From Actinomycetes bacterium (lineage in GTDB: Bacteria; Actinomycetota; Acidimicrobiia; Acidimicrobiales; Ilumatobacteraceae): a stretch of 33,225 nt of DNA. The notes under the pieces are model-generated. The model ran no database searches. It worked only from the letters and a program-made list of their open reading frames with translations, and was not told the origin of the DNA. A program made the position numbers and the translations under genes. Shown here piece after piece: positions 18,602-20,398 of this stretch. The first letter of the stretch is position 1, and every line of letters begins with the position of its first letter. The stretch is from contig JAIOPC010000006.1 in the NCBI GenBank assembly GCA_021414085.1, forward strand, positions 1 to 33,225. Reading direction: 5' to 3'.

Positions 18602-19219
18602 TCAGCTTCCAGAGACGTTTTCTGCCGCTGCCTTGGCGAACGCAGCGAGGTTGGCTACATCGATCTTGGCGGAGGTGGCGACCGTGAATACCTGGTTGTT
18701 GGCGAGCACGGCGATCTGGGTGAACGTCGGAGCGGCCGACACGGCTGCCTGATCGCCCAAGCCGGCGAGCGGCTCGTACTCGGTATCGAAGAGTACGAAC
18801 GAGGTGGTGTAGTCGAAACCGGCTTGCCCGGCGCGGCCGCCGAGGTCTTCGTTCGGGCGTTGCACAGCGAGGGTGAGGTTGCTGCTGACACCGTCGGCGG
18901 TGGTGAAGTCGTAGAAGCACTGCGGGGTCGACGCGTCGAACGGCGCAACGTCGGTGATCTCAACGCCGAGCGTCGTGGTTGCGATTTCCTGGGAGACAAG
19001 TGTGCAGACTTCGGCCGATGTGTACACCTTGACCGTTGCGGGGTCGATCACATCGCCTGGGTCCGGTGCGGTCGTGTCGCCGGTCGTATCGCCGGTCGTG
19101 TCACCCGGCGTCGAGTCCGCTACTTCGCCGGCAGTTACATCGTCGGTGGTCTTTGCATCGTCGCTGCACGCTGCGGTGAGAGCAGTCAACGTGAGAAGTG
19201 GGAGCAGAAGTTTCTTCAT
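18602..19219 (-). CDS. Secreted lipoprotein of unknown function
   Basis: The 205-residue protein begins MKKLLLPLLTLTALTAACSDD, a lipoprotein signal with Cys18. A linker with three TTGD-type repeats (a 12-base tandem repeat in the DNA) runs to about residue 60. The globular part contains three further cysteines or fewer and reads like the DUF3558 type of actinobacterial lipoprotein, with ICTLVS-like VCTLVSQEIA and QCFYDF segments. No enzymatic motif is seen. The -10 box TAGTTT lies 6 nt upstream of the ATG, so it heads the minus-strand unit running to 17758. Confidence 0.8.
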   Translation of the reverse strand: MKKLLLPLLTLTALTAACSDDAKTTDDVTAGEVADSTPGDTTGDTTGDTTAPDPGDVIDPATVKVYTSAEVCTLVSQEIATTTLGVEITDVAPFDASTPQCFYDFTTADGVSSNLTLAVQRPNEDLGGRAGQAGFDYTTSFVLFDTEYEPLAGLGDQAAVSAAPTFTQIAVLANNQVFTVATSAKIDVANLAAFAKAAAENVSGS

Positions 19220-19225
19220 GGATTG

Positions 19226-19231
19226 AAACTA
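19226..19231 (-). promoter_or_regulatory. -10 box TAGTTT of the lipoprotein gene
   Basis: On the minus strand TAGTTT ends 6 nt before ATG 19219 with no SD between, which predicts a leaderless transcript. Confidence 0.55.
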
Positions 19232-19271
19232 GCTGGCGTTGTCAGACGGCGATCGATCAAGCAGAATGGAC

Positions 19272-19370
19272 CAGTCGAAGGGGAGTAGCCCTACGGGATC
19301 GGTCGTCAGTACGGCAGCTTGCTGCCCGGCCCCCCGGCCGCCAATAAGGCGGTAGCGAGACTTTCGACTG
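19272..19370 (+). ncRNA. yybP-ykoY manganese riboswitch aptamer
   Basis: The leader of terC contains the hallmark GAAGGGGAGTAGCC at 19277-19290 and ends with AGCGAGACTTT at 19354-19364, both conserved in the yybP-ykoY family. The closing helix P1 is a 10-bp pairing of CAGTCGAAGG (19272-19281) with CTTTCGACTG (19361-19370), including one G-U. Internal hairpins include GGCAGC/GCTGCC (19313-19326). The family binds Mn2+ and often controls TerC and other Mn exporters, which fits the gene downstream. Confidence 0.88.
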
Positions 19371-19395
19371 TCCGTTTGTCCGAGACAGTCGAAGG
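19361..19395 (+). promoter_or_regulatory. Riboswitch expression platform: SD-sequestering hairpin
   Basis: CTTTCGACTGTC (19361-19372) can pair with GACAGTCGAAGG (19384-19395) over 12 bp including one G-U, with an 11-nt loop. The 5' arm is the 3' strand of aptamer helix P1, so the two helices exclude each other. The 3' arm covers most of the SD GAAGGG (19391-19396) of terC. Aptamer folding should therefore free the SD and switch translation on. Confidence 0.75.
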
Positions 19396-19408
19396 GAACC
19401 CTCTCTCC

Positions 19409-20398
19409 ATGTTTGCCGCTACCGATCGTTCGCAGTTCGTCGACCTTGATGTGCCCGTCTGGGCGTGGGGCGCGCTCATTGCCGTGATTTTCGCCATGTT
19501 GGCGGTCGACCTGTATCGGCATCGCGACGATCATGAGCCAACGCCGAAGGAAGCGCTGATCGAGTCGCTGGTGTGGGTCGCGTGCGGGCTTGCCTTCTCG
19601 GGTGCGATTGCGATCGGGTTCGGCAGCGGTGCGTTCGGCGAGTACATCAGCGGCTACCTGATCGAGAAGTCGCTCAGCATCGACAACGTGTTCGTCTGGT
19701 CGATGTTGTTCACAACGCTGGCCATACCGGTCAAGTATCAGCACCGTGTTCTGTTCTGGGGCATCTTCGGTGCGCTCGCATTGCGAGCAATCTTCATCGT
19801 TCTCGGTAGCGCGCTGATCAGTCGGTTCTGGTGGCTACTACTGGTGTTCGGTGTGTTCCTGATCTTCACCGGCGCCAAGATCATTCGTCACCGTGCCGAC
19901 GAAGGCAAAGAGGAAGCGACTCGTGGTCTGGGCTTGTTGCGCAAGTTCATTCCTGTCTCCGACGAGTTCGATGGGCACAAGTTCTTCACCCGCGTCAACG
20001 CCAAGCGCGCCGCCACGCCGCTTCTTGCGGCACTGGTCGTGATCGAGATCACCGACGTGATCTTCGCTGTCGACTCAGTGCCCGCGATCCTGGCGGTGTC
20101 CAACGAGTCGTACCTAGTGTTCGCGTCGAACGCGTTCGCCATCCTGGGCTTGCGGGCGATGTACTTCTTGCTCGCCAACGCGAAAGAGAAGTTCCATTAC
20201 CTCTCGCATGCGCTCGGCGGCATCCTGATCTTCGTCGGCATCAAGATGGCCATCTCGCACTGGTACCACATGAACACCTACGTCTCGCTGGCCATCATCG
20301 TGACGATGCTCGTGGCGGCAATCATCCTCAGCATGCGGCTATCGAAGCGTTTGGGAGTGCCAGTCGCTGAGGTGGCGCACGGAGATCACGCTCACTAG
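19409..20398 (+). CDS. terC: TerC-family membrane protein, probable manganese exporter
   Basis: The 329-residue protein has about eight to nine spans and the TerC hallmarks LIEKSLSIDNVFVW (about 89-102) and EITDVIFAVDSVPAILAV (about 214-231), whose acidic residues are thought to line the metal path. Family members such as Alx and MeeF/MeeY export Mn2+, protecting from excess or metallating exported enzymes. The manganese riboswitch directly upstream supports that role over the older tellurite-resistance label. ATG 19409 has GAAGGG 12 nt upstream. The tail ends in a short His-rich run (AHGDHAH). It is monocistronic, followed by a tRNA gene on the other strand. Confidence 0.93.
   Translation: MFAATDRSQFVDLDVPVWAWGALIAVIFAMLAVDLYRHRDDHEPTPKEALIESLVWVACGLAFSGAIAIGFGSGAFGEYISGYLIEKSLSIDNVFVWSMLFTTLAIPVKYQHRVLFWGIFGALALRAIFIVLGSALISRFWWLLLVFGVFLIFTGAKIIRHRADEGKEEATRGLGLLRKFIPVSDEFDGHKFFTRVNAKRAATPLLAALVVIEITDVIFAVDSVPAILAVSNESYLVFASNAFAILGLRAMYFLLANAKEKFHYLSHALGGILIFVGIKMAISHWYHMNTYVSLAIIVTMLVAAIILSMRLSKRLGVPVAEVAHGDHAH

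Follow-up and report, generated by a model that had tools for sequence, protein, structure and literature searches.

Why does the leader of a terC gene carry the same 11 nucleotides twice, once in the strand that opens a predicted aptamer and once over the gene's Shine-Dalgarno sequence (SD)? We addressed this question for a locus in the window, by which we mean the whole 33,225-nucleotide stretch of DNA that was analyzed. The original prediction held that the leader is a manganese riboswitch in which the two copies compete for a single partner strand, the SD being hidden in one state and free in the other.

The duplication proved exact in every coordinate checked. CAGTCGAAGGG is present at 19272-19282 and again at 19386-19396 over the terC SD (copies 100% identical, spacing 114), and CTTTCGACTG at 19361-19370 is a pairing partner available to either copy, just as had been proposed. 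With the first copy, it forms helix P1 (10 bp, 19272-19281 with 19370-19361, one G-U). With the second, it forms the competing OFF helix, the 12-bp SD-hiding hairpin already foreseen (19361-19372 with 19395-19384, one U-G), which buries the AAGG of the SD. Both the exclusivity of the two helices and the hiding of the SD in the OFF helix were computed for the terC leader. For the hairpin at 19359-19398, the predicted folding energy is -20.9 kcal/mol (z -4.0, matched by 1 of 200 shuffles), and an exact direct repeat of at least 11 nt arose in 40 of 20,000 (0.2%) dinucleotide-preserving shuffles of 19265-19412. By nearest-neighbour energies, which do not include tertiary contacts, the OFF fold reaches -61.2 kcal/mol against -52.7 kcal/mol for the best P1 fold. 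When the P1 fold is forced, the SD still pairs weakly in a local hairpin, with unpaired probabilities of 0.01-0.70, and, from reading the sequence, the AAGG stands 13 nt from the ATG, a long SD-ATG gap. The parts of the leader and its surroundings are collected in Table 1.

Table 1 Features of the terC leader and adjoining sequence in the window, with the basis of each assignment
Feature	Position	Strand	Basis
Promoter-like site TTGTCA-17-CAGAAT	19239-19267	+	9/12 matches; mean 0.0 in 50 shuffles
P1 5' strand, first repeat copy (repeat runs to 19282)	19272-19281	+	repeat match; P1 covaries in A2
GGGGAGUA: end of the P1 5' strand (two bases) plus loop L1, 5' side	19280-19287	+	invariant in A1; GGGAGUA in 103/105 pooled relatives
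Helix P3 with loop L3; CGUCAGUACG (19304-19313) opposite CCGG (19326-19329)	19294-19336	+	folding, covariation
Helix P4, CCGCC with GGCGG	19338-19352	+	folding, covariation
GCGAGAC: P1.2 partner (GC) and 3' side of loop L1	19355-19361	+	P1.2 covariation in A2
Strand common to both helices: 3' side of P1 (19361-19370), anti-SD (19361-19372)	19361-19372	+	folding, swap tests
Copy carrying the SD GAAGGG (19391-19396); OFF hairpin formed by 19384-19395 with 19372-19361	19384-19396	+	folding, repeat, relatives
terC, TerC-family membrane protein, 329 aa	19409-20398	+	PF03741; ATG at 19409

The original prediction also called for a hit with the covariance model RF00080, and here it was not borne out: the model returned no match on the window, either at its gathering cut-off (45 bits) or at E <= 10, and none over the source genome. 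This outcome is non-diagnostic. With RF00080 (Rfam 15), E. coli mntP reaches 41.6 bits, short of the same cut-off, and nothing is listed at E. coli alx at E <= 1 (alx/mntP control loci L281:3462-3558 and L282:3368-3509), yet both are named Mn-sensing riboswitches (PMC9603457). Because RF00080 also misses these reported members, its negative result tells more about the model than about the RNA. As a route to relatives, similarity of the leader DNA was too shallow (7 of 298 genomes of the order, its own included), and leaders were therefore gathered through TerC. TerC matches were found in 98 of 298 genomes of the order, and a leader pattern of GGGGAGUA, CGUCA loop, CCGG, GAGACC and a closing P1 strand was present at 23 of the 98 TerC loci, some of them duplicates. 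Eighteen of these patterned leaders make up alignment A1, from which we built covariance model R1.

At E <= 0.001, R1 matches 81 of 345 Acidimicrobiia genomes, as against 1 of 296 for RF00080 (below its cut-off); the two class-wide searches are different draws, made with strict filters and with the first few candidates per genome scored. At the same threshold, R1 has matches in 100 of 396 genomes of the phylum (15 of these 100 belong to Acidimicrobiia), and at E <= 0.01 it finds 18 of 80 named TerC loci, Herpetosiphon giganteus among them. Some of its weakest matches (L191, L192) look like chance. To avoid circularity, a second model, R2, was made from 16 leaders with the window and its nearest leader excluded. 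The sole R2 match in the 33 kb of the window at E <= 1 is the terC leader, with 67.6 bits (E 1e-14), and the relatives' models likewise match the E. coli alx leader (40.4 bits with R1, 38.4 bits with R2); R1 does not report mntP at E <= 1. RF00080 itself matched one of 12 relatives (L040, 26.8 bits) and, in another set of 16 loci, three (L246, 33.8 bits; L273, 24.7 bits; L264, 24.4 bits), all below the cut-off; it matched none of the 7 phylum loci on which it was run (L274-L280). The four sub-cut-off matches, out of 28 loci, coincide with R1 matches. The window is in this way connected to recognised yybP-ykoY members through intermediate sequences, R2 reaching both the window and alx, and RF00080 reaching the relatives.

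The aptamer carries the marks of a conserved structure. RNAalifold on A1 (aligned with MAFFT) found P1, P1.2, P3 and P4; of their 23 pairs, 14 show compensation. In the larger alignment A2 (95 rows, 92 distinct), which was fitted to the model and hence leans towards it, 92.5% of cells pair compared to 73.7% in shuffles, with 0 of 500 shuffles reaching 92.5%. Both-sided changes occur at 22 of 25 pairs, slid controls drop to 35-56%, and the P1.2 column pair 24-205 is UA in 50 rows, GC in 24 and CG in 12. All four helices thus have covariation support. For counts across relatives, the 109 pooled loci were reduced to 105: two (L191 and L192) lack the core motif and were regarded as chance matches, and two others (L190 and L150) lie at contig ends. 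A further locus, L193, was not recovered at E <= 0.001, and all such counts include related, non-independent sequences. Within P1, pairs 1-7 from the loop are kept in 103, 102, 100, 97, 83, 65 and 58 of the 105 relatives, the inner five being firm and the outer ones loose.

Both loops of the class core are likewise present, namely L1, which we take to be the junction of the GGGGAGUA and GAGAC strands, and L3 with its predicted sensing adenosine. A CGUCA or CGACA loop occurs in 102 of the 105 pooled relatives. The Mn-sensing adenosine of the class lies within UCA in L. lactis and within ACA in X. oryzae (PMC6754395); judged by its sequence context, A19308 matches as the likely counterpart, and CGUCA/CGACA would be its equivalent in relatives. 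The P2 hairpin and the four-way junction, by contrast with these shared parts, are absent from the terC leader. The AGUA-to-CGUCA spacing is 16 nt here, 15-19 nt in 97 of 102 relatives and 18 nt in E. coli alx, too short for P2. Since the alx spacing is also short, the class appears to tolerate the absence of P2.

Among the closest known systems, the alx leader is matched by R1 and R2, and its gene product is a TerC-family protein like that of the window (44% identical over 305 aligned positions). The two differ in output: from reading the alx sequence, the partner of its P1 3' strand belongs to a small hairpin ending ~65 nt ahead of the start codon, and a stretch rich in U lies farther downstream, whereas in the terC leader the SD itself is the partner. 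E. coli mntP offers a translational ON switch, with a ribosome-binding site (RBS) that is inaccessible without Mn and freed with it, but belongs to another gene family and has a 229-nt leader (PMC11647493) that R1 leaves unreported. In the yybP-ykoY riboswitches of L. lactis and X. oryzae, the 3' strand of P1.1, the helix stabilised by Mn2+ (PMC6754395), joins a competing hairpin without Mn2+ (PMC6754395, PMC11087558), a likeness to the strand exchange proposed here; these riboswitches have a four-way junction and a terminator as output, while the terC leader has no room for P2 and would act through the SD. An actinobacterial terC under an RF00080 leader is reported from Corynebacterium glutamicum (cg2157), with a 5' UTR seen by RNA-seq; unlike the window leader, it does match RF00080, at 49 bits (PMC3890552).

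If the second helix is functional, we would expect relatives to keep it, as the original prediction also anticipated. Free-register counting, a weak test, gave a modest excess (347 of 507 kept pairs compared to a mean of 300 and a maximum of 325 in 60 swaps), and we used two other tests instead. The energy-swap test sets each P1 3' strand against its own next 85 nt and those of 103 others (104 of the 105 loci, L149 left out). In 33 of 104 loci, 5% or fewer of the swapped regions equal the own region, and in 89 of 104, 50% or fewer do. For the terC leader of the window, the value is -20.0 kcal/mol, where swaps average -9.8 kcal/mol, and one other region equals it. In the fixed-register test, the register is set by the five SD-proximal bases alone and the next five are scored (92 loci with an ORF start within 95 nt). 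The mean is 2.89 pairs, whereas 500 swaps average 2.25 and never exceed 2.53; 34 of the 92 relatives, counted over all gene types, reach 4-5 of 5 extra pairs, and 58 do not. When each of 37 leaders linked to terC is scored in its best register, 21 have 10 or more of 12 ungapped pairs, and the window has all 12. This fraction of 0.57 exceeds the swap mean of 0.27 and maximum of 0.42 (300 swaps), although for a few of the 21 (L151, L157, L186) the best register lies away from the SD. ORF starts set by rule are wrong in some loci (e.g. L127, L126, L100), which affects both the fixed-register and the best-register tests. The second pairing is therefore kept above chance and is frequent near terC, and this part of the expectation held; it is not universal, and many relatives lack it beside the SD. 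The exact 11-nt duplication is an extreme case, own to this leader.

The gene behind the leader is a clear member of its family (PF03741: E 3.9e-51, 173.8 bits against a curated cut-off of 27.8), and a search of solved structures with TerC gave no match. A longer mechanical ORF, from a TTG at 19319, starts within the aptamer. Upstream, 189 bases separate the terC ATG from a divergent ORF (18602-19219, minus strand) with no Pfam match, and these bases hold a single promoter-like site (Table 1), from which a transcript would be expected to start near 19274, at the P1 5' strand. In 90 of 101 relatives, a -10-like YANNNT starts 17-27 nt ahead of GGGAGUA (shuffled mean 22.8, maximum 35), and because of this placement the mRNA probably begins at P1. 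As to the history of the gene, the TerC of the window is 74-80% identical to the riboswitch-linked TerC of L109, L182, L170, L144 and L002, five genomes from other families of the class or order, 79% identical to that of L127 from its own family, and 55% identical to the best TerC of one same-genus genome searched. The terC gene and its leader may travel together, or the TerC copies may be paralogues.

We further looked at which genes follow the related leaders. A Pfam scan covered 90 of 107 downstream ORFs (out were L191 and L192, the doubtful frames L103, L118, L121, L147 and L171, and ten incomplete ORFs) and assigned TerC to 29, Cation_ATPase_N to 26, GDT1 to 11, cation efflux to 3 and Na/Ca exchanger to 2, so that up to 71 of the 90 proteins belong to metal-transporter families. 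Mn efflux systems are described as including CDF, UPF0016 (GDT1) and P-type ATPases, and TerC proteins, though disputed, as mostly Mn exporters in recent work (PMC13274385); a role of TerC proteins in the metalation of exported enzymes is also described (PMC10550928). Not every terC has such a leader: 62 of 80 named TerC loci are without one, as is the second TerC of the source genome (G000:C16). Less expected families among the 90 proteins are Usp (5), zinc-ribbon TFIIB (4), the DksA/TraR zinc finger (4) and M48 (2). From reading the translations, Peptidase_M48 falls to L115 and L165, the zinc-ribbon TFIIB-like proteins to L112, L139, L169 and L184, and DksA/TraR and Usp to L135 and others. 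One genome (G515) has five R1 matches: L135, L183 and L177 (G515:C157), and L161 and L189. Three of the five share a single contig, within a span of 3.5 kb.

On this evidence, we consider it very likely that the terC leader is a yybP-ykoY-class Mn2+ riboswitch, alx-like and P2-less, that controls terC translation. The predicted riboswitch with strand exchange is supported, at the level of sequence, by the relatives' covariance models that match both the window and alx and by a pairing kept above chance. From the same material, we infer Mn2+ as the ligand, the ON direction, control at translation, and a TerC that exports Mn2+ or metalates secreted proteins. Without Mn2+, 19361-19372 would pair with the second copy at 19384-19395 and hide the SD. 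With Mn2+ bound between L1 and L3, P1 (19272-19281 with 19361-19370) would be held and the copy released, which would free the SD and allow ribosomes to start on terC. The ON direction is suggested by the geometry of the exclusive helices together with class precedent (P1.1 stabilised by Mn2+; mntP RBS freed by Mn). P1 may be able to form before the second copy is transcribed. Thermodynamic folding alone was ruled out as proof of switching, as the OFF state wins by 8.5 kcal/mol; given this preference, and an SD that is weakly paired in the P1 fold, the ligand together with docking, or co-transcriptional folding, must set the state.

No intrinsic terminator-like site was found in 19180-19480, which leaves control at translation, with Rho as a possible addition. 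The same Mn2+ aptamer might instead work through transcription, with Rho or an unseen terminator stopping the transcript while the SD is hidden and the leader untranslated. Precedents exist: in L. lactis and X. oryzae, yybP switches governed by P1.1 work through terminators (PMC6754395, PMC11087558), and E. coli mntP joins a translational riboswitch with Rho (PMC11647493). We nevertheless regard it as unlikely here, where, besides the missing terminator, no U-run follows the OFF hairpin and the SD lies within the OFF helix, both in the terC leader and in many relatives. Less probable still is that the fold is kept but responds mainly to a different signal, for example alkaline pH or a divalent metal other than Mn2+: the mntP riboswitch is tied to pH as well as to Mn (PMC9603457), but the terC leader retains the predicted Mn-sensing adenosine and loops L1 and L3, and the adjoining genes are largely of families with Mn efflux members. 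That the leader is a plain SD-hiding hairpin with a chance repeat and no ligand-sensing RNA, as the silence of RF00080 might suggest, is very improbable in view of the 67.6 bits to a model built without the window, the covariation of the aptamer and the rarity of such a repeat in shuffles (0.2%).

Among the relatives, GDT1- and CDF-linked ones and some others carry the P1 copy well upstream of the start. Such leaders could work as a relay: in the OFF state, the P1 3' strand would pair with the copy and a second anti-SD strand with the SD, and in the ON state, P1 would form and the copy would pair with the anti-SD strand. Once freed by Mn2+, the decoy copy would thus take the second anti-SD strand and leave the true SD free. 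Relay candidates downstream of the aptamer were noted at L143, L158, L145, L168, L131, L142, L154, L146, L149, L159, L181 and L186. Across 18 hand-picked loci, the own duplex of copy and downstream strand averages -16.4 kcal/mol compared to a swap mean of -13.2 kcal/mol (reached in 0 of 2000 swaps); a z at or below -2.0 was obtained for the second hairpin at only 3 of these loci. We tentatively propose, while holding it doubtful as a whole, that Acidimicrobiia and other Actinomycetota contain a large set of P2-less Mn riboswitches, mostly invisible to RF00080 and placed at the 5' end of the mRNA, in which exchange of a P1 strand with an SD-like copy is common and a relay operates in the GDT1- and cation-efflux-linked members. 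Our estimate for this extended reading, already low, was taken down slightly because folding supports the second hairpin weakly.

Much of this framework is already known: the riboswitch class, P1 as the switch helix, translational control and an actinobacterial terC as target (C. glutamicum, PMC3890552). As far as the literature searched goes, in which few subscription papers were covered, the new elements are this member, the breadth in Acidimicrobiia of a set of alx-like leaders without P2 that escape RF00080, and the frequency with which an SD copy serves as the platform; the same search found no literature joining a manganese riboswitch with an anti-Shine-Dalgarno strand. For annotation, reliance on the RF00080 gathering score misses reported members (mntP, alx), and an empty RF00080 result says little in Acidimicrobiia, where R1 and RF00080 differ so widely (81 of 345 and 1 of 296 genomes, in different draws). 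The terC locus itself is a compact predicted translational Mn switch whose logic is open to compensatory mutation, and it provides a model by which Mn-efflux genes of uncultured groups could be annotated.
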